This document shows positions 38,040-59,221 of a stretch of DNA of 64,000 nt, piece after piece. The notes below the pieces were generated by a model. It saw only the letters and a program-made list of their open reading frames with translations, was not told where the DNA came from and searched no databases. Made by a program: the position numbers and the translations under genes. Source of the DNA: Pseudomonadota bacterium (GTDB lineage Bacteria > Pseudomonadota > Gammaproteobacteria > Burkholderiales > Burkholderiaceae_C). How positions within the stretch are numbered: the first letter of the stretch is position 1; each line of letters begins with the position of its first letter. Where the stretch lies: positions 1-64,000 of the forward strand of contig JAIUPQ010000003.1 in NCBI GenBank assembly GCA_020161145.1. The letters run 5' to 3'.

Positions 38040-38138
38040 AACTGAACGCCCCGCCAAAGAGGCGGGGCGCTACCTAGGTCCAGGTGCGGATCCGGCTTGG
38101 CCGGGCCGCAGCCTGCCCCCCTCGTGGGAGCGTGGGGG
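38040..38138. repeat. Intergenic repeat and hairpins between infB and rbfA
   Basis: Contains a GCCCCGCC/GGCGGGGC hairpin and then GGATCCGGCTTGGCCGG followed by a C-rich/G-rich dyad ending GGGAGCGTGGGGG directly at the infB stop. The same arrangement recurs at about 54254..54324 and 57834..57904, each time directly against the stop of a minus-strand gene. It is a dispersed repeat able to form RNA hairpins. Confidence 0.6.
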
Positions 38139-46967: not shown

Positions 46968-46999
46968 TCGCGGGCTGTAGAAGAACTTTGCATTGCACC

Positions 47000-48031
47000 A
47001 TGAGCTTTCGCGTCACCTTGCAGCCCTCGCAGCGCCAGTTCGACGTGGCCGACGACGAGGCCATCCTGACCGCCGCCATCCGCGAGGGCATCGGCCTGCC
47101 CTATGGCTGCAAGGACGGCGCCTGCGGCTCGTGCAAAAGCCGGCTGCTGGAAGGCCGCGTGGTCCACGGCAGCCACCAGGCCAGCGCGCTGACCGAGGCC
47201 GAGGAAGCTGCCGGTCTCATCCTCACCTGCCGCGCCCGGCCGCAGACCGACTGCACCGTGGAGGCGCGCAGCGTGCCCGGCATGGGCGACTACCCCATCG
47301 TCAAAATGCCTGGCCGCATCCTCGCGCTGGAGCGCCCGGCGCCGGACGTGGCGCTGCTGCGGGTGCAACTGCCCGGCAACCAGAAGTTCGCCTGGCGCGC
47401 CGGGCAGTACGTGGAGTTCATCCTGCAAGGCGGCGTGCGACGCAGCTACTCCATGGCCAACGCGCCGCACCAGGTGGGCGAGCCGCCGTCCATCGAACTG
47501 CACGTGCGCCACATGCCCGGCGGCGTCTTCACCGACCACGTCTTCGGCGCCATGAAGGTCAAGGACATCGTGCGCATGGAAGGCCCGTTCGGCACCTTCT
47601 TCCTGCGTGAAGACAGCCGCGCGCCCGTGGTGCTGCTGGCCTCGGGCACGGGCTTTGCCCCCATCAAGGCCATCATCGAGCACATGCAGACGCTGGCCGA
47701 GCCACGCCCCACCGTGCTCTATTGGGGCGTGCGACGCCCCGCCGACCTCTACCTGCACGCCTGGGCCGAAGCCGCCGCCGCCAGCCTGCCCTGGCTGCGC
47801 TACGTGCCCGTGTGCTCCGAGCCCCGCCCCGAAGACGGCTGGTTGGGCCGCAGCGGCTTCGTCCACCAGGCCGTGATGGCCGACCTGCCCGACCTCTCGG
47901 CCCAGCAGGTCTACGCCTGCGGCGCCCCGGCCATGGTGCACGCCGCACAGACCGACTTCACCCAACGCTGCGGGCTGCCGGACGAGGCCTTCTTTGCGGA
48001 TGCGTTCACCAGTGAGGCGGATAAGCACTGA
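47000..48031 (+). CDS. 2Fe-2S/FAD/NAD(P)H oxidoreductase (CDP-6-deoxy-glucoseen-reductase type)
   Basis: 343 residues from ATG 47000. The N-terminal plant-type ferredoxin domain has PYGCKDGACGSCKSRLLEG and the last Cys in LTCRARPQTDC. The FAD domain has the RSYSMANAP motif and the NAD domain VVLLASGTGFAPIKAII, followed by VYACGAPAMVHAA. It transfers electrons from NAD(P)H to an oxygenase or other partner, probably in another locus. Although often annotated as CDP-6-deoxy-delta-3,4-glucoseen reductase, sugar metabolism is not indicated here. It is a paralogue in layout of the reductase at 53152..54201. Confidence 0.9.
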   Translation: MSFRVTLQPSQRQFDVADDEAILTAAIREGIGLPYGCKDGACGSCKSRLLEGRVVHGSHQASALTEAEEAAGLILTCRARPQTDCTVEARSVPGMGDYPIVKMPGRILALERPAPDVALLRVQLPGNQKFAWRAGQYVEFILQGGVRRSYSMANAPHQVGEPPSIELHVRHMPGGVFTDHVFGAMKVKDIVRMEGPFGTFFLREDSRAPVVLLASGTGFAPIKAIIEHMQTLAEPRPTVLYWGVRRPADLYLHAWAEAAAASLPWLRYVPVCSEPRPEDGWLGRSGFVHQAVMADLPDLSAQQVYACGAPAMVHAAQTDFTQRCGLPDEAFFADAFTSEADKH

Positions 48032-49166: not shown

Positions 49167-50506
49167 TCACATCCCCAAATACGCCGCCCTTACCCGCTCA
49201 TTGGCCAGCAGGTCACGCCCCCGCCCCGAGAGGCTGATGCGGCCGGTTTCCAGCACGTAGCCGGTGTCGGCGATGGAGAGGGCCGCGTGGGCGTTCTGCT
49301 CCACCAGCAGGATGGTGATGCCCTGGCTCTTCAGCGTCTTGACGACGCGGAAGATTTCTTCGATCAGCAGCGGCGCCAGGCCCATGCTGGGTTCGTCCAG
49401 CAGCAGCAGGCGCGGGCGGCCCATCAGGGCGCGGGCCATGGCCAGCATCTGCTGCTGGCCGCCCGACAGGGTGCCGGCGGGCAGCAGGCGCTTTTCCTTG
49501 AGGATGGGGAAAAGCGCGTAGGCCTTGTCCAGGTCGTCGGCCAGCTCGCTCCTGGGCCGGGTGTAGGCGCCCAGGCGCAGGTTGTCTTCGATGGTGAGTG
49601 GGCCGAACACCTGCCGCCCTTCGGGCACCTGGCAGATGCCGGCGCGCACGCGGGTGTCGGGGCGGCTGCGCTCGATGCGCTGGCCCTGGTAGCTGATGCT
49701 GCCCGCGCTGGCCGGCTGCACACCAGAGAGGGTGCGCAGCAGCGTGGTTTTGCCGGCGCCGTTGGCACCCACCAAGGCCACCAGTTCGCCCTGGTACACA
49801 TCCAGGTCGATGCCGCCCAGCGCCTGGATGCGGCCGTAGTGGCTGGCCAGGCCCCGCACCTCCAGCACCTTGGTGCCCAGGGGGGGCGCAGGCGTCGGCG
49901 ATGCCACGACGGGCGCCGGCGCGCCGGGCTGGGCCGCCAGCGCCACGTCGCCGCCCAGCCCCAGCGGCGCGGGCGTCAGCTGCACCAGTCGCGCCCGCAA
50001 CGCGGCGAACTCGGCCTGCGGCGCCTCACCGAAAAGCGGGTCGTCGTGGGCCAGGAAGGCGGCGTCGATTTCGGCCCAGTCGGCCGGCTGCAGCATGCGG
50101 CGGGCCAGCGGCAGGATGCTGCGCTCCTCCAGCCGGATGTGGGCGCGCAGCTGCTCGGCGTAGCCGTGCAGGCCGGCCGCCAGGCCCGGCTGCACCCCGC
50201 CCTCCACCACGCTTTGGGCTTGCGTCAGCAGGCGCTGGAGCACCACCGGCACGCTGCGGTGCTCGGACTCCAGTTGGGCCAGATCGACGTCGCCATCGGG
50301 CGTGCGCGTGCGCAGCAGCCTGAAGAGGTAGTCGTCCTCCTTGGGGTGGTGCAGGCGGTCGGCAAAGTCGTTCAGGTAGCCCAGCATGGCCACCACGGCG
50401 GCGGCGTCGGCCGACGTGGGCACCGCCAGCTGATCGGCCAGGGCGTCGAGCGCGGTGCTCACCCGCCACATGCTGCGGTGTTCGGCCTGGATGACCTCCA
50501 GTGCCT

Positions 50507-50510
<4 letters not shown>
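49167..50510 (-). CDS. livF: Hemerythrin-LivF fusion: ABC importer ATPase with N-terminal HHE domain
   Basis: 447 residues from GTG 50510, whose GTGA overlaps the livG stop. Residues 1-160 are a hemerythrin/HHE domain: His11 (QAEHRSMW), His54-His55 and Glu58 (LHHPKEDDYLF), His84 (ESEHRSVP), His124 and Glu128 (RAHIRLEERS) are the expected diiron ligands. A Pro/Ala-rich linker (about 176-213) leads to a full LivF ATPase (214-447) with Walker A GANGAGKTT, signature LSGGQQQML and Walker B LLLLDEPSMG. Ordinary LivF is about 235 residues, so the domain is an addition. It could let O2 or iron state tune uptake. Confidence 0.93.
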
Positions 50511-51260
<750 letters not shown>

Positions 51261-51268
<8 letters not shown>

Positions 51269-52205
51269 GTGTCCCCCCCTTGCGGCGCAGCTTGGCGGCC
51301 AGCGTGGGCACGATGCCCTTGGGCAGGAAGATCATGGTGGCCATCAGCACCGCGCCAAAGGCCACCGTCTCCCAGCCCTCGAAGGTGGACAGCAGTTGCG
51401 GCAGCAGCGTCAGCAGCAGCGCCCCGACGATGGAGCCAAACACCGACGCCATGCCGCCCACCACCACCATGGTCACCAGCTCGATGGAGTGGAAGAACCC
51501 GGCCACGCCGGGCGTGACGAAGGCCACGTAATGCGCGGTCAGGCTGCCCACCAGGCTGGCGATGACGGCCGAGACCACGAAGATGCGCACCTTGACCCGC
51601 ACGGTGTCCACGCCCACCACCTGCGCGGCCACCTCGGAGCCGTGAATGGCCTGCAGCGCGCGGCCGGCGGGCGAGTCGATGAGGTTGAGCGCCAGCCAGG
51701 TGGTCAGCCACAGCAGCACGGCGACGACCCCATACCAACTGGCCTCACCGGTCAACTCCAGTCCGCCCACGCCCAGCGTGGCCACCGCAATGCCGTCCGG
51801 CCCGCCGGTGTAGGCGGCCTCGTTGGTGATGACGATGGCGATGATGATGCCCAGGCCCAGCGTGGCCATGGCCAGGTAGTGGCCTTTGAGCTTGAGCACC
51901 GGCCGCGCAATGGCCAGGGCCAGCAGGCCCGAGGCCGCTGCCCCCGCCGCCATGGCCACCAGCGGCGGCCACTCGAACTGCCAGCCGGTGAGGATGCCGC
52001 TGGCGTAGGCGCCGATGCCCACAAAGCCGGCATGGCCCAGGCTGATCTGGCCGGTGTAGCCAATCAGCAGGTTCAGACCGATGACGACGATGGCATTGAG
52101 CATGACGCGGATGGCCACGTCGTACAGATACGGGTTGACCAGCGCCAGCGGCGCCACCGCCAGCAGCACGGCCAGCAGCGCCAGGCCCAGGGTGCGGGGC
52201 TTCAT
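51261..52205 (-). CDS. livM: ABC importer permease LivM
   Basis: 314 residues from ATG 52205 (MKPRTLGLALLAVLLAVAPL); the longer frame is not supported. It is hydrophobic throughout, about eight or nine helices, with the family block NLLIGYTGQISLGHAGFVGI near the N-terminus and the cytoplasmic coupling loop RVKVRIFVVSAVIASLVGSL. It forms the membrane channel with LivH. In this class substrates include branched amino acids but also aromatic acids and amides. Confidence 0.95.
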
Positions 52206-52263: not shown

Positions 52264-53139
52264 TCATACGCGCTCCGTGACCTTGGCGCCAAAGAGGCCG
52301 CGCGGCATGAAGAACAGCACGGCCAGAATCAGCACGAAGGGCACCGCATCTTTGTAGGCCGAGGAGATGTAGCCGGCCGTCATGGCCTCGACGATGCCCA
52401 GCAACAGCCCGCCCACGATGGCCCCGGCCCCGCTGCCCAGCCCGCCCAGCGTGGCGGCCACAAAGCCTTTGAGGCCCAGCATGATGCCCACGTCATACGA
52501 GGTGCTGGTGATGGGCGCGATCAAGATGCCGCCCACGGCGCCCAGCGCCCCGGCCAACGCAAAACTGGCCATCAGGATGCGCTGGGTGGGGATGCCCACC
52601 AGTTGCGCCGCCAGCTTGTTGTGCGAGGTGGCCAGCATGGCCTTGCCGGCCAGCGTGCGGTTGAAGAACCAGGCCAGCAGCACGCAGACCACCAGCGTCA
52701 CGCCCAGCACCCACAGGCTCTGCGGCAGCAGCGTGGCGCCCAGCACCTGGATGGGCGTCTCGCCCGAAAACGCCGGCAGCGCGTGCGCCCCCTTGCCCCA
52801 GATGACCTGCACCAGACCGCGTATGACCAGCGAGGCGCCGATGGTGATGATGATCAGCGTCACCACCTCGGCGTCCTTGGCCGGCTCGATGGCCAGCTTC
52901 TCCACCAGCACGCCCACCAGCGCCGTGGCCGCCACGGCGGCGGCAATGGCCAGCGGCAACGGCAGGCCCAGCCCCAGCAGCACCACCGTGGCCATGCCGC
53001 CCAGCATGATGAACTCGCCCTGGGCAAAGTTGATGACGCCGCTGGCGTTGTAGATGATGGAAAAACCCAGCGCCGCCAGCGCGTAGGTGGCGCCCACCGT
53101 CACGCCGGAAAACAGGAATTGCAGGAACGAGGCAAGCAC
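52264..53139 (-). CDS. livH: ABC importer permease LivH
   Basis: 291 residues starting MLASFLQFLFSGVTVGATYA, with IIYNASGVINFAQGEFIMLG near residue 30 and the coupling region RILMASFALAGALGAVGGIL, all standard for LivH. It heterodimerises with LivM. It lies 12 bases after the reductase gene, so importer and redox genes share one transcript. Confidence 0.95.
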   Translation of the reverse strand: MLASFLQFLFSGVTVGATYALAALGFSIIYNASGVINFAQGEFIMLGGMATVVLLGLGLPLPLAIAAAVAATALVGVLVEKLAIEPAKDAEVVTLIIITIGASLVIRGLVQVIWGKGAHALPAFSGETPIQVLGATLLPQSLWVLGVTLVVCVLLAWFFNRTLAGKAMLATSHNKLAAQLVGIPTQRILMASFALAGALGAVGGILIAPITSTSYDVGIMLGLKGFVAATLGGLGSGAGAIVGGLLLGIVEAMTAGYISSAYKDAVPFVLILAVLFFMPRGLFGAKVTERV

Positions 53140-53151
53140 GGCGGCTTCTCC

Positions 53152-54201
53152 TTACAGCAACTGGGACGACGGGGGCGTCTGCGGCGGGCTTTGAGGGTAA
53201 TAGCCTTCGGTGTGGGTCAGCTCCGGCTTGGCGCCCAACGCCTTGGCGGCGTTGACGCAGTCCTCGACGAAGGCCGGCGAGCCGGCCACGAAGAGGCTGT
53301 GCCGCGACAGGTCTTTGAACAGCGTGGGCAGCAGCGCCGGGATGCGGCCTTGCAGCACCTTGTCGTTCTGCGGCGGCTCGCGCGTCACCGTGGGCCGGTA
53401 GCGGAAGTTGCGGTGGCGCGCCGCCCACCACGCCATCAGGCCGGCGTCGTAGAGGTCGGCATGGGTGGCGGCCGACATCATCAGCGTCACCGGCTCCGAG
53501 TAGCTGCGCCGCAGCGCCGCCTCGGCCAGCGACAGGATGGGCGCCAGCCCCGAGCCCGCCGCCAGGCACAGCACCGGCGTCTCCACCGACGGATCGCCGA
53601 TGAAGGTGCCGTAAGGCCCGTTGAGCGACACCCGGGTGCCGGGGTGCAGGCTCTCATGCACCCAGCCGCTGGTGTTGCCCTCGTCCTGGCGCGTGATCTG
53701 CAACACCAGCTCGCCATCCACGCGCGGCGCGTTGGCAATCGAGTAGCTGCGCAGCGGCACGCCGCCGTCGGGGTCGCCCAGCATCAGGTACTGGCCGGGC
53801 CAGTAGCGCATGCCCTCGCGCACCGGGCGCAGCCGCAGCTCCACGATGCGCGGGGTGCGCTGGATGCGGTCCACCACCATATAGGGCTGCTTCTCGCGCG
53901 GCGGAAACAGCTTGGGCCGGGCGTCCTCGGTGCCCCACTCGATGACCAGCTCGTCCGACAGCGGCTTGGCCATGCACATGAGGCCAAAGCCCTGCTTGCG
54001 CTCATCGGGCGACAGCGCCATGTCCAGCACAAAGCCCTGGTCGAACTGCCCGCCGATCACCTTGACCTTGCACTCGCCGCAGGCGCCGGCACGGCAGTTG
54101 TTGGGCAGTGCATAGCCTGCCTTCTCCAGCGACTCCAGCACTGTGGCGCCCTCAGGACAAGGCACCAGATGACCCGAAGGATGCAACCGAATTTGTTTCA
54201 T
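53152..54201 (-). CDS. 2Fe-2S/FAD/NAD(P)H reductase, likely partner of the diiron protein
   Basis: 349 residues from ATG 54201 (MKQIRLHPSGHLVPC). The ferredoxin domain comes first (LPNNCRAGACGECKVKVIGG, then GLMCMAKPLS). An FAD domain with LRSYSIANAPR and an NAD domain with PVLCLAAGSGLAPILSLAE follow. This N-terminal-ferredoxin order is that of toluene/phenol monooxygenase reductases, not of PaaE, which has the cluster at the C-terminus. It is encoded directly after the ferritin-like diiron protein (about 120 bases apart, over an intergenic repeat), so it probably delivers electrons to it. Confidence 0.9.
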   Translation of the reverse strand: MKQIRLHPSGHLVPCPEGATVLESLEKAGYALPNNCRAGACGECKVKVIGGQFDQGFVLDMALSPDERKQGFGLMCMAKPLSDELVIEWGTEDARPKLFPPREKQPYMVVDRIQRTPRIVELRLRPVREGMRYWPGQYLMLGDPDGGVPLRSYSIANAPRVDGELVLQITRQDEGNTSGWVHESLHPGTRVSLNGPYGTFIGDPSVETPVLCLAAGSGLAPILSLAEAALRRSYSEPVTLMMSAATHADLYDAGLMAWWAARHRNFRYRPTVTREPPQNDKVLQGRIPALLPTLFKDLSRHSLFVAGSPAFVEDCVNAAKALGAKPELTHTEGYYPQSPPQTPPSSQLL

Positions 54202-54253
54202 GGCATTCAACGCAAACAAGCAACGCAAAGCACGATCGAAACCCGGTGGCGTG

Positions 54254-54324
54254 CGCGGAACCGGCTCTGCCGGTCCGCTGCGCGAGCCCCCTTGGGGGGC
54301 AGCGACCGGCAGGGAGCGTGGGGG
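54254..54324. repeat. Intergenic repeat after the diiron gene
   Basis: Between the diiron gene stop and the reductase start: an inverted CCGGCTCTGCCGG-type element, a CCCCCTTGGGGGG dyad and the terminal GGGAGCGTGGGGGC against the stop codon. It is the same organisation as the copies after infB and after paaK. Confidence 0.6.
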
Positions 54325-55350
54325 CTAAAACACCGGGATGATGTCCACCATATCCGCGTCGCTCACCTCCTGCCCCGTGATGCCGACCTCGGGAATGGCG
54401 GGGAACGGGATGTCGTACTTGTCCAGCACGCCCTTGAGGTTGAGCATGGCCTGTTTCCAGTTCTCCTTCTTGGCCTCGTATTCGGGCACGAAGAAGCCGG
54501 CACCGCGCGCCACGGCCTCGACCTCGCGCTGGTAGGCGATGAAGTCGCTGGGGATGTCCCAGAAGTCTTCCGGCGGCTCGAACAACACGCCCGACAGGAA
54601 CAGGAAGCCCGCGCGGATCTGCTTGGTGATCAGCGGCTTGTCCGAGACGTCCATCTTGGGGTAGTCGCGCTCCATCAGCGACATGCAGATGGCCATGTGG
54701 CGGCCCTCGTCGCGGCCGATGTTGCGGAACGCCTCCTTGAACACCGGCTCGGTGCACTTGGCGGCCATCTGGTGAAAGATGGTGGCGGCGGCGATCTCGC
54801 CCATCAGGAAGGAGCTGAACAGCACGGCCAGCGAGTACTTGGGCACGGCGTTCTTGTAGCCAGCCCAGTAGCGGCCGCCGTTGTAGTACAGCCAGTGCGC
54901 GTTGCGTTGCGCCTTGCGGCCGATCTCGGTCTTGGGCGTGTAGGTCAGCGGGTCCGGATGCTCCAGCAGCTTGGTGATGGCCAGGCCGCAGATCTGCTCG
55001 TGGTTCTGCTCGTCGCGCGTGACGCTGAAGAAGCAGCGGCGCACGGCGTCTTCCTCGTGGGCCTCGTAGGTCTTGATCAGCGCGGCGGCAAACACCGGCG
55101 GCGCCGAGGCATCGAACACCGAGAGGATGGTCCACCAGTAGGCGATGGCCTCGCGCTCTTCCCACGAGTAGGTGCTGGGGTCGAACGAGTCCCAGTCCAG
55201 TTTCTTGGGATCCCAGTTCTCGCGCTGGGCGGCGTCCCAGATCTCTTCGAGTTTGGCCGTGTGGGCGTGCCAGCTCAGCGGGTAGACGTTGGGCTGCGGG
55301 GTGGCCGGCGGCAGCGGCATGGTTTTGGCCAGACTTTCATGTTTCGCCAT
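54325..55350 (-). CDS. Ferritin-like diiron-carboxylate protein, candidate oxygenase
   Basis: 341 residues from ATG 55350, with AAGAGGAG upstream; a TTG nine codons earlier is less likely. Two Glu-x-x-His motifs, DEQNHE (Glu114/His117) and DEGRHM (Glu215/His218), are preceded at 30-34 residues by Asp80 (VFDASAPP) and Glu185 (MGEIAAAT). That is the four-helix diiron layout of ribonucleotide reductase R2, AurF-like N-oxygenases and ferritin-like oxygenases. It lacks the length and marks of PaaA, BoxB or the large toluene monooxygenase subunit. Placed between livK and a 2Fe-2S/FAD reductase in a unit with PaaK and thiolase, it is probably the oxygenase of the pathway. The exact family is unresolved. 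Confidence 0.78.
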   Translation of the reverse strand: MAKHESLAKTMPLPPATPQPNVYPLSWHAHTAKLEEIWDAAQRENWDPKKLDWDSFDPSTYSWEEREAIAYWWTILSVFDASAPPVFAAALIKTYEAHEEDAVRRCFFSVTRDEQNHEQICGLAITKLLEHPDPLTYTPKTEIGRKAQRNAHWLYYNGGRYWAGYKNAVPKYSLAVLFSSFLMGEIAAATIFHQMAAKCTEPVFKEAFRNIGRDEGRHMAICMSLMERDYPKMDVSDKPLITKQIRAGFLFLSGVLFEPPEDFWDIPSDFIAYQREVEAVARGAGFFVPEYEAKKENWKQAMLNLKGVLDKYDIPFPAIPEVGITGQEVSDADMVDIIPVF

Positions 55351-55385
55351 GGTGCGAATCTCCTCTTGGGTCAACAATCAACGAT

Positions 55386-56540
55386 TCAAGGGACGACGAC
55401 CCAGTCGCCCTTTTTCACTTCCAGCATGCGGAAGGCGGACAGATCCAGCCCCATGTGGTCGGTGGGGCTCATGGTGAAGAGGCCGGTGACGCCCATCTGG
55501 CCTTTGGTGGCCTCCAGTGCGGCGCGCACCTTGGCACCGTCGGTGCCGCCTGCGCGCTTGATGGCGTCCACGGCCAGGGCCAGCGCGTCGTGCGCATAGC
55601 CGCCAAAGGTGGAGGGCTCTTGCTTGTAGCGGTCGCGATAGGCCTTGGCGTAGGCCGTGGCCACGGCTTTTTGCGGATCGCTGGCCGGCAGCGCGTCGGC
55701 GACCAGCAACGCAGGCGACGGCAGGCGCACGCCCTCGGCGGCCGCGCCGGCCAGCTTCAGGTACTCGTCCGAGGCCACACCATGCGACTGGTATTGCGGC
55801 TGCTTGAGGCCCAACTGGGCGATGTTCTTGCTGACCACGGCCGGCCCCTGGCCCAGGCCGAAGACGAAGATGGCCTGCACGCCGGGGACGTTGCGGATCT
55901 TGGTCAGCTGGGCCGTCACGTCGGCGTCCTTGGGGCCGTAGGTTTCGTCGGCCACCAGCTCGATGCCCATCCTGGGCGCCACGACCTGCGTCTCTTTGCG
56001 GCCCGACTGGCCGAAGCCGCTGGTCTCCGACAGCAGCGCCACCTTGGTGATGCCCCGTTTTTTCATGTCGGCAAACACCTTCTCGGCCGCCATGCGGTCG
56101 GTGTGGGGCGTCTTGAAGACCCACTTCTTGACCGGCTCGACCACCACCACCCCGCCGGCCAGCGAGATGAAGGGCACGCCTGCCTTCTCGACCAGTGGCG
56201 CCATGGCCATGGTGGCGCCGGTGGTGGTGCCGCCGATGAGCAGATCGACCTTGTCCGAATCGAGCAGCCGCTTGGCAAAGCCGTTGGCCTTGCCGGCCTC
56301 GCCGCCGTCGTCGTAATGCACCAGCGTGAGCTTGCGGCCCAGCACGCCGCCGGCGGCGTTCAGGCGCTCGATCTCCATTTGCAGCGTCTTGAGCTCGGGC
56401 TCGCCCAGGAAGGCGGCCGGGCCGGTGATGGAGAGCACCGAGCCGATCTTGATGTCGGCCCCTTGGGCCCAGGCCGGGGCCGCGCCGGCCACCAGCGTGG
56501 CCGCTGCGAGTTGAATCAGGGTGCGCTTGCGCAGAATCAT
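55386..56540 (-). CDS. livK: ABC importer substrate-binding protein (LivK/periplasmic family)
   Basis: 384 residues from ATG 56540; the frame to 56627 lacks support. The signal peptide is LIQLAAATLVAGAAPAWAQG. The mature protein has the type I binding fold: IKIGSVLSITGPAAFLGEPE, then LIGGTTTGATMAMAPLVEKA and VALLSETSGFGQSGRKETQV. This subfamily is common for aromatic and other carboxylates as well as amino acids, so the substrate is not given by homology. It should feed the LivHMGF importer encoded just downstream. Confidence 0.9.
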   Translation of the reverse strand: MILRKRTLIQLAAATLVAGAAPAWAQGADIKIGSVLSITGPAAFLGEPELKTLQMEIERLNAAGGVLGRKLTLVHYDDGGEAGKANGFAKRLLDSDKVDLLIGGTTTGATMAMAPLVEKAGVPFISLAGGVVVVEPVKKWVFKTPHTDRMAAEKVFADMKKRGITKVALLSETSGFGQSGRKETQVVAPRMGIELVADETYGPKDADVTAQLTKIRNVPGVQAIFVFGLGQGPAVVSKNIAQLGLKQPQYQSHGVASDEYLKLAGAAAEGVRLPSPALLVADALPASDPQKAVATAYAKAYRDRYKQEPSTFGGYAHDALALAVDAIKRAGGTDGAKVRAALEATKGQMGVTGLFTMSPTDHMGLDLSAFRMLEVKKGDWVVVP

Positions 56541-56568
56541 GCTCGGGTCTCCTTCATGGCAAAAGTCG

Positions 56569-57774
<1,206 letters not shown>

Positions 57775-57833
57775 ATAAAAAGTCCGATAGAGGCCAGGCT
57801 CCCCGCATCACTCAGCCAAACCAGGCGGCACCC

Positions 57834-57904
57834 ACGGATCCGGCTTGGCCGGTCCGTCGGGTGCGCCCCCTCGAGGGGGCCGGCGCAGCCGGTAGGGGGT
57901 GGTC
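57834..57904. repeat. Intergenic repeat after paaK
   Basis: GGATCCGGCTTGGCCGG followed by a CCCCCTCGAGGGGG dyad, then GCGCAGCCGGTAGGGGG adjoining the paaK stop. It matches the copy after infB closely at the GGATCCGGCTTGGCCGG part. Confidence 0.65.
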
Positions 57905-59221
57905 TCATTTTGGTCGTTTATCGAAGACCCGCCTGGCCTTGCCAGTGGTGGTGCGCTCGATGCTGCCGGCGGCCATCACGCGCACGCGGGTGGAGATGCC
58001 CACATAGGTCTTGATGGCGCGCTCCAGGCTGCGCCCCACCCCTTCGCTCTCCAGTGCCGACAGCCGCGTGGGCAGGTCGATGCGGGTCTCGACCAGCACG
58101 TCCAGCTGGTCCAGATGCCCCTCGCGCGTCAGCACCAGCTGGTAATGCGGCGCCAGCTCGGCCGCCTTGAGGATCAGCTCCTCGATCTGGGTGGGGAAGA
58201 CGTTGACGCCGCGGATGATCATCATGTCGTCCGAGCGGCCGGTGATCTTGTCCATGCGCCGCATGCTGCGCGAGGTGGGGGGCAGCAGCCGCGTCAGGTC
58301 GCGCGTGCGGTAGCGGATGACGGGCATGGCCTCTTTGGTCAGCGAGGTGAAGACCAGCTCGCCCTCTTCGCCATCGGGCAGCACGGCGCCCGTCTCGGGG
58401 TCGATGATCTCGGGGTAGAAATGGTCTTCCCAGATCACCGGGCCGTCTTTGCTTTCCACACACTCGCTGGCCACGCCCGGGCCCATGACCTCCGAGAGGC
58501 CATAGATGTCCACCGCGTCCAGGCCGGCGCGCCGCTCGATCTCGACGCGCATGGCCGGCGTCCAGGGTTCGGCGCCGAAGATGCCGATCTCGAGCGAGGT
58601 CTGCGCCGCGTCCAGGCCCTGGCGCTCCAGCTCCTCGATGATGTTGAGCATGTAGGACGGCGTCACCATGATGATGCGCGGCTTGAAGTCGGTGATGAGC
58701 TGCACCTGCTTTTCGGTCTGGCCGCCCGACATGGGCACCACCGTGCAGCCCAGCCGCTCGGCGCCGTAGTGCGCGCCCAGGCCGCCGGTGAACAGGCCGT
58801 AGCCGTAGGCGATGTGGCAGATGTCGCCCGCCCGCCCCCCGGCAGCGCGGATGGAGCGCGCCACCACGGTGGCCCAGGTCTCGATGTCGCCCCGGGTGTA
58901 GCCCACCACCGTGGGCTTGCCCGTGGTGCCCGACGAGGCGTGAATGCGCACCACCTGCTCGCGCGGCACGGCAAACAGGCCAAACGGGTAGTTGGCGCGC
59001 AAGTCCTGCTTGCCGGTGAAGGGAAACCTGGCCAGGTCTTCCAGCCGCCGGCAGTCGCTGGGGTGGACGCCGGCCGCATCGAACGCCTGCCGGTAATGCG
59101 GCACATGGTCGTAAGCCCGCTGGAGCGTGGCTTGCAGGCGCGCCAGTTGCAGCGCGGCGATCTCATCGCGGCTGGCGGTCTCGATGGGATCGAGTTCGTC
59201 TGGGCGCGGCACCTTGGCCAT
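57905..59221 (-). CDS. paaK: Phenylacetate-CoA ligase
   Basis: 438 residues from ATG 59221 with GGAG eight bases upstream; ATG 59254 is less supported. AMP-forming ligase motifs typical of PaaK are RIHASSGTTGKPTVVGYT (P-loop-like), MVTPSYMLNIIEELERQG, VDIYGLSEVMGPGVASEC, YRTRDLTRLLPP and SDDMMIIRGVNVFPTQIEEL. The C-terminal KARRVFD region is the usual end. It activates phenylacetate or a close analogue to its CoA thioester. It heads the unit with thiolase, diiron oxygenase, reductase and importer. Confidence 0.92.
   Translation of the reverse strand: MAKVPRPDELDPIETASRDEIAALQLARLQATLQRAYDHVPHYRQAFDAAGVHPSDCRRLEDLARFPFTGKQDLRANYPFGLFAVPREQVVRIHASSGTTGKPTVVGYTRGDIETWATVVARSIRAAGGRAGDICHIAYGYGLFTGGLGAHYGAERLGCTVVPMSGGQTEKQVQLITDFKPRIIMVTPSYMLNIIEELERQGLDAAQTSLEIGIFGAEPWTPAMRVEIERRAGLDAVDIYGLSEVMGPGVASECVESKDGPVIWEDHFYPEIIDPETGAVLPDGEEGELVFTSLTKEAMPVIRYRTRDLTRLLPPTSRSMRRMDKITGRSDDMMIIRGVNVFPTQIEELILKAAELAPHYQLVLTREGHLDQLDVLVETRIDLPTRLSALESEGVGRSLERAIKTYVGISTRVRVMAAGSIERTTTGKARRVFDKRPK

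Follow-up and report, generated by a model that had tools for sequence, protein, structure and literature searches.

The window analyzed here, a 64,000-nucleotide stretch of a Pseudomonadota bacterium of the family Burkholderiaceae_C (positions 1 to 64,000 of contig JAIUPQ010000003.1, assembly GCA_020161145.1), carries a gene unit in which a putative diiron oxygenase, termed DIIRON, is followed by a putative reductase, termed RED. DIIRON-RED quite probably acts as a two-component, O2-dependent ring epoxidase of phenylacetyl-coenzyme A (phenylacetyl-CoA) with an oxygenase that shows no sequence relationship to PaaABC, and some bacteria appear to have no other phenylacetyl-CoA oxygenase. We regard the pair as a good candidate for a second phenylacetyl-CoA epoxidase that is unrelated to the known one. 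It is also likely that the pair represents an evolutionarily separate class of this enzyme, consisting of a single-subunit R2-like oxygenase and its own reductase, which would serve as the sole ring oxygenase in, for example, Accumulibacter and several Burkholderiales, and would work in parallel with PaaABCE, perhaps at low oxygen, elsewhere, including in this comamonad. The computed evidence comprises gene order, protein families, predicted fold, residue conservation, and co-occurrence.

The co-occurrence evidence comes from genomes that encode DIIRON and were searched with PF05138, the family of PaaA and PaaC. These comprised a set of 12, the genomes of 50 of the 80 loci described below, and the window's own genome, giving 60 after three duplicated entries had been merged (G497 with G094, G500 with G013, and G510 with G052). 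The threshold for scoring PaaA as absent varied by sample, at E 1e-3 for the 12 genomes, 1e-20 for the 50, and 1e-40 in a further search. No PF05138 match over the cut-off was present in 8 of the 12, and 13 of the 50 gave none at E ≤ 1e-20, with one genome in both groups; altogether, 20 of the 60 genomes lack the family. G522, which has a lone divergent PF05138 gene (83.9 bits), was left out of these 20. All 20 nevertheless contain PaaG at E ≤ 1e-80, in 16 cases over the curated cut-off, and 19 contain PaaN or full-length PaaZ, the exception being G506 (20 of 21 if G522 is added). PaaN or full-length PaaZ was found in only 2 of 49 genomes with neither oxygenase, a group made up of 39 chosen for a PaaG match and 10 chosen for lacking one. 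Both of these cases rest on PaaN: G285 also carries a divergent lone PF05138 gene, and the PaaN match of G308 is marginal (592 versus 579 bits). The difference between 19/20 and 2/49 has a Fisher p of ~1e-13, a value that applies to a selected sample and ignores kinship. For comparison, 8 of ten PaaA-containing genomes, two of which also encode DIIRON, have PaaN or full-length PaaZ. Partial matches covering ~504-509 of the 664 PaaZ positions were not counted as PaaZ (over the cut-off in G109 and G449, below it in G448, G475, and G445). Across the DIIRON tree, PaaA status must have switched 8 times, at least 6 by starred branches, and the pattern is therefore not the product of one event.

These downstream genes were adopted as the marker because PaaG turned out to be unspecific across the order. 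As an exclusive marker, PaaG had passed a first test, being absent from all 27 neither-oxygenase genomes (0/27), but was overturned by the order-wide comparison. Among 399 order-level genomes, 106 have a PaaG match, 66 have PaaA/PaaC, and 9 have DIIRON, all 9 of the latter with PaaG. When only PaaA-less genomes of the order are considered, PaaG is present in 6 of 6 with DIIRON versus 39 of 327 without it (p 4.5e-6).

The gene neighborhoods point in the same direction. A scan of genome contigs yielded 145 stretches encoding DIIRON, of which the best 80 were retained. RED lies downstream of DIIRON in 80 of 80, and PaaX directly upstream of the pair in many. Within ~10 kilobases of DIIRON, 37 of the 52 full-length loci contain one or more of nine paa genes (a raw count without a random-gene control) and 17 contain at least three, with PaaX in 23, PaaK in 16, PaaG in 15, and PaaA in 9. 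In Comamonas and Marinospirillum loci the pair sits between paaK and paaA; in Azospirillum loci it follows PaaX and adjoins Liv genes. DIIRON is encoded in 5 of 100 genomes sampled from the family, 9 of 399 from the order, and 2 of 329 from the phylum, the window's own genome counted each time, and at the thresholds used no weaker, more distant DIIRON matches were listed for these three samples.

In five genomes (G026, G302, G401, G445, and G210), PaaN, PaaG, PaaH, PaaI, PaaK, PcaF, and LivK stand beside DIIRON-RED in one locus, and none of the five has a PF05138 match over the cut-off. The most compact arrangement is that of G210 (locus L104), where livK-pcaF-paaK-paaI-paaH-paaG-paaN face DIIRON-RED-livHMG-HHE-livF. 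Each of its six enzymes PaaK, PaaG, PaaH, PaaI, PaaN, and PcaF exceeds its curated cut-off, and among the reading frames of this locus we recognized no oxygenase candidate except DIIRON. In G315, which shares the genus code of G210, the locus is the same apart from an added paaABCDE set that follows livK.

Several observations weigh against an epoxidase role, or against its exclusivity. DIIRON stands beside PaaABCDE in its own genome, in 4 of the 12 genomes, and in 36 of the 50, and one further genome of the 50 has only a divergent PF05138 gene. Many of the PaaA-less genomes are metagenome-assembled; completeness is not given for the 50-genome set, in which PF05138 matches weaker than 1e-20 were also hidden. 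The PaaG matches of 4 of the 20 PaaA-less genomes fall under the curated cut-off, and in the locus checked PaaF was not identified by its curated model. No member of the nine paa genes lies near DIIRON in 15 of the 52 full-length loci, and in the single-contig genome G826, which has DIIRON-RED, the surroundings within ~30 kilobases yield only weak paralogue matches (27-33% identity). Exclusivity is also weakened by PaaG-type genes that occur with neither enzyme: 39 of the 399 order genomes have such a match without PaaA or DIIRON, 18 of them over the TIGR02280 cut-off. These may be paralogues or may belong to pathways with another oxygenase. We read 15 such loci; PaaK lies nearby in 3 of them (G109, G231, and G285), the last of which additionally contains PaaN and a lone, divergent PF05138 gene. 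The presence of PaaK and PaaG without DIIRON or canonical PaaA means that other solutions, or missing sequence, must exist.

Two lone divergent PF05138 genes encode 213-238 residues. One lies beside paaG/paaN/paaK in G285 (L115:8941-9579, 58.9 bits), and another beside paaX/DIIRON in Azospirillum isscasi (L108:16443-17156, 81.7 bits). They possibly represent a third oxygenase variant.

In the window, DIIRON-RED is embedded in a unit of nine genes, all on the minus strand, which spans positions 59221-49167 and reads, in order of transcription:

57905..59221, minus strand: paaK, phenylacetate-CoA ligase, 438 residues (TIGR02155, 734.8 bits against a curated cut-off of 646.3)
56569..57774, minus strand: pcaF/paaJ, 3-oxoadipyl-CoA thiolase, 401 residues (TIGR02430, 736 bits against an NCBIfam cut-off of 597)
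55386..56540, minus strand: livK-type periplasmic binding protein, 384 residues (PF13458, 207.5 bits)
54325..55350, minus strand: DIIRON, R2-like putative diiron oxygenase, 341 residues (AlphaFold2 model, Foldseek, residue conservation)
53152..54201, minus strand: RED, putative cognate reductase with N-terminal [2Fe-2S] ferredoxin, flavin adenine dinucleotide (FAD), and nicotinamide adenine dinucleotide (NAD) domains, 349 residues (PF00111, PF00970, and PF00175 over cut-off)
52264..53139, minus strand: livH-type permease, 291 residues (PF02653, BPD_transp_2, 133.1 bits)
51261..52205, minus strand: livM-type permease, 314 residues (PF02653, BPD_transp_2, 126.9 bits)
50507..51268, minus strand: livG-type ATPase, 253 residues (PF00005 and PF12399)
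49167..50510, minus strand: hemerythrin (HHE)-LivF fusion ATPase (PF01814, 56 bits, and PF00005, 106.3 bits, in one frame)

The gaps between successive genes, calculated from the coordinates, are 130, 28, 35, 123, 12, and ~58 base pairs, followed by two short overlaps. An earlier note, made from the sequence of the window, had described this order, strand, position, and close spacing correctly; the last gene, which it called livF, is in fact a fusion, with the HHE domain N-terminal to LivF and a GTG start that overlaps the livG stop. The same note had suggested a possible new aromatic-acid pathway, pointing out that PaaABCDE and PaaFGHZ were absent from the window. For PaaABCDE, PaaG, and PaaZ, this absence holds for the window but not for the genome. 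A PF05138 search of the genome finds two genes, both on contig C2, where PaaA, PaaC, PaaD, and PaaE each exceed their curated cut-offs and a PaaB-like frame, assigned by similarity and by eye, lies between PaaA and PaaC. PaaG is found on contig C3 (347 and 345.2 bits, at the cut-off of 345.15), and full-length PaaZ on contig C8. Hence, the unit does not define a new pathway but forms a portion of the phenylacetate (paa) pathway, the genes of which are scattered over this genome, and DIIRON-RED as a replacement for PaaABCDE in this particular organism is ruled out. The window itself holds both a phenylacetate-CoA ligase and a pathway thiolase, the combination taken to mark a paa locus, and its paaK is the single copy in the genome over the curated cut-off (one of three matches in the own-genome search). 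As for conservation of the gene set, the oxygenase and reductase are kept together throughout the loci; the wider set varies.

DIIRON exceeds no Pfam or NCBIfam cut-off, the nearest family being Rubrerythrin (22.6 versus 22.8 bits), so that no match to an unrelated well-known enzyme stands above a threshold. No useful match came from searching its sequence against solved structures. An AlphaFold2 model built from 52 sequences (mean predicted local distance difference test score 86) predicts an R2-like fold: the best solved folds in Foldseek are ribonucleotide reductase R2 and the R2-like oxidases (R2lox), with a probability of 1.00, an E-value of 6e-4, and a template modeling score of ~0.5. 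Seven residues (D80, E114, H117, C121, E185, E215, and H218) are invariant in 60 of 60 DIIRON sequences, the lowest pairwise identity being 69.6%. All of these except C121 are putative di-iron ligands, as judged from their D-ExxH-E-ExxH spacing, which we take to be the R2 pattern, and C121 presumably occupies the place of the R2 radical tyrosine (R2 numbering). Beyond fold and ligand spacing, DIIRON differs from R2 and R2lox in its low identity (11-18% in the 50 rows listed), its invariant Cys121, its dedicated reductase, and its paa context. PF00268 (NrdB/NrdF) is not listed for the window's DIIRON and reaches E ≤ 0.01 with 20 of the 52 alignment members; neither a PF00268 match over the cut-off nor the radical tyrosine of R2 was found.

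The earlier note's view that the protein resembles neither PaaA nor BoxB was borne out. PF05138 does not match DIIRON and is not among the families listed for the 52 members, and a comparison by hhalign with three aligned PaaA sequences gave 0.5%, a weak test on its own since both profiles are shallow. In the NCBIfam scan, the BoxB model did not match DIIRON, nor the BoxA model RED. With PaaABCE, the pair would share the proposed reaction, and it shares the PaaX regulator, the neighboring enzymes, and the combination of an oxygenase with a flavin/[2Fe-2S] reductase. It differs in having one oxygenase gene instead of PaaA, PaaB, and PaaC, none of which is found in the window's unit, where RED alone follows DIIRON, and in the position of the ferredoxin domain, which is N-terminal in RED and C-terminal in PaaE. 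RED is MmoC/BenC-like, at scores under the cut-offs of those models, which recalls the multicomponent monooxygenases (soluble methane monooxygenase and toluene monooxygenases), but the genes of the unit include neither a beta subunit nor a coupling protein. BoxB offers a precedent: according to an excerpt of PMC4498308, this single diiron subunit epoxidizes an aryl-CoA with the help of a separate reductase, BoxA, which has two [4Fe-4S] clusters as opposed to the one plant-type [2Fe-2S] domain of RED.

In the mechanism we propose, the iron binding, electron flow, substrate, product, and transport substrate of the unit are all predicted. The Liv-type transporter would import phenylacetate, which PaaK would convert to phenylacetyl-CoA. 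NAD(P)H would reduce RED, first at FAD and then at the [2Fe-2S] cluster, and RED would in turn reduce the di-iron site of DIIRON, allowing it to activate O2 and form 1,2-epoxyphenylacetyl-CoA. PaaG would transform this product into oxepin-CoA, to be opened and oxidized by PaaZ, or by PaaN and a separate hydrolase, before PcaF/PaaJ, PaaF, and PaaH complete the pathway. Of the two substrates that the earlier note had considered plausible for an alternative oxygenase, an aryl-CoA is favored by comparative genomics. Since DIIRON-RED tracks genes of the CoA-ester pathway, the free acid is the less likely of the two.

A refinement of the epoxidase reading, possible though doubtful in our estimate, is that DIIRON-RED is the low-oxygen partner of PaaABCE, catalyzing the same reaction with another O2 affinity or under other regulation. 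The loci include those of Comamonas denitrificans, Azospirillum, Denitromonas, Pseudothauera, Magnetospirillum, Marinospirillum, and Accumulibacter, whose lifestyles we presume to be linked to low oxygen, and a hemerythrin domain is fused to LivF in the unit. However, Paraburkholderia, Roseateles, and Ideonella, which are ordinary aerobes, are also among the hosts.

We consider it unlikely that the pair instead supplies or protects the pathway without attacking the ring, whether by converting a precursor to phenylacetate or phenylacetyl-CoA or by clearing epoxide or peroxide. Its coexistence with PaaABCDE in many genomes would fit such a role, and the handling of epoxide is a real need, since PaaABCE can reverse the epoxidation (PMC4498308, in excerpt). 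Yet in the PaaA-less loci read, a survey confined to the loci themselves, we recognized no other oxygenase for the ring step.

Slightly less probable again is hydroxylation of a related acid or CoA ester, such as the conversion of phenylacetate to a hydroxyphenylacetate, feeding a homogentisate route. Azospirillum loci do hold suitable genes beside DIIRON-RED: in L056:13027-18484 the flanking genes include a homogentisate-dioxygenase-like gene (76 bits versus a cut-off of 511), a FAD monooxygenase gene over the NF006002 cut-off, and a putative fumarylacetoacetase assigned by eye, with no NCBIfam match at 1e-15. Such a context is nonetheless almost confined to Azospirillum among the loci read, and the PaaG retained by all 20 PaaA-less genomes, like the PaaN or PaaZ retained by 19, would be superfluous for this route.

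An N-oxygenase of the AurF/CmlI/DnfA type, acting on an aromatic amine or hydroxylamine, is very improbable: a likely diiron site, a weak AurF match in all 52 alignment members (best E 1.3e-6), and the ferredoxin-type reductase that likewise adjoins DnfA (PMC9478400, in excerpt) suggest kinship, but PF11583 scores only 16.2 bits on the window's DIIRON against a gathering cut-off of 29.6, and the position of the family's third histidine (HxxxExxH, in a seven-ligand site) holds Ile or Val throughout the 60 sequences, on which grounds we rejected this assignment.

As described in the available part of PMC13186573, PaaA and PaaC were retained in all 825 ligase proteomes, the last filter kept only ligases co-localized with PaaABCDE, and a small number of rare configurations lacking core epoxidase subunits were recorded; genomes such as the PaaA-less ones described here would therefore tend to drop out. 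Excerpts of PMC3899980 report that two Azospirillum strains with a complete paa cluster grow on phenylacetate, that A. brasilense strains do not, and that Azospirillum paaA-E, paaN, and paaJ are classed as horizontally acquired. The alternative enzyme treated in the accessible portion of PMC9007349 is an oxepin-CoA hydrolase, not an epoxidase, and the sections of PMC2653477, PMC6515984, and PMC9765128 available to us do not mention the DIIRON family. Among open-licence PMC papers, represented mostly by their listings, we recognized none on DIIRON or on an alternative phenylacetyl-CoA epoxidase. Epoxidation of phenylacetyl-CoA commits the substrate to a central aromatic pathway. If DIIRON-RED does catalyze it, PaaA/PaaC would not suffice to mark the pathway, and marker-based prediction would miss a class of degraders. 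A single-subunit enzyme for this chemistry would also be useful to compare with PaaABCE and BoxB and might serve as a biocatalyst.

Three further features of the unit and its surroundings were observed. The HHE and LivF domains of the fusion also occur in L104, downstream of DIIRON-RED-livHMG, and L013 shows full-length similarity to the fusion (447/447); its role is perhaps O2 or redox sensing. Downstream of the unit, on the opposite strand, a second reductase gene with ferredoxin (Fer2), FAD, and NAD domains (46997-48031, plus strand) is also MmoC/BenC-like, under those cut-offs. Finally, a palindromic repeat rich in G and C occurs on the minus strand at 54256-54278, 57835-57857, and 38087-38109 with at most 3 mismatches, the first two copies being intergenic within the unit; these 3 matches compare with 0.34 expected, and 3 were reached in 1 of 100 shuffles, for a pattern derived from the window itself.

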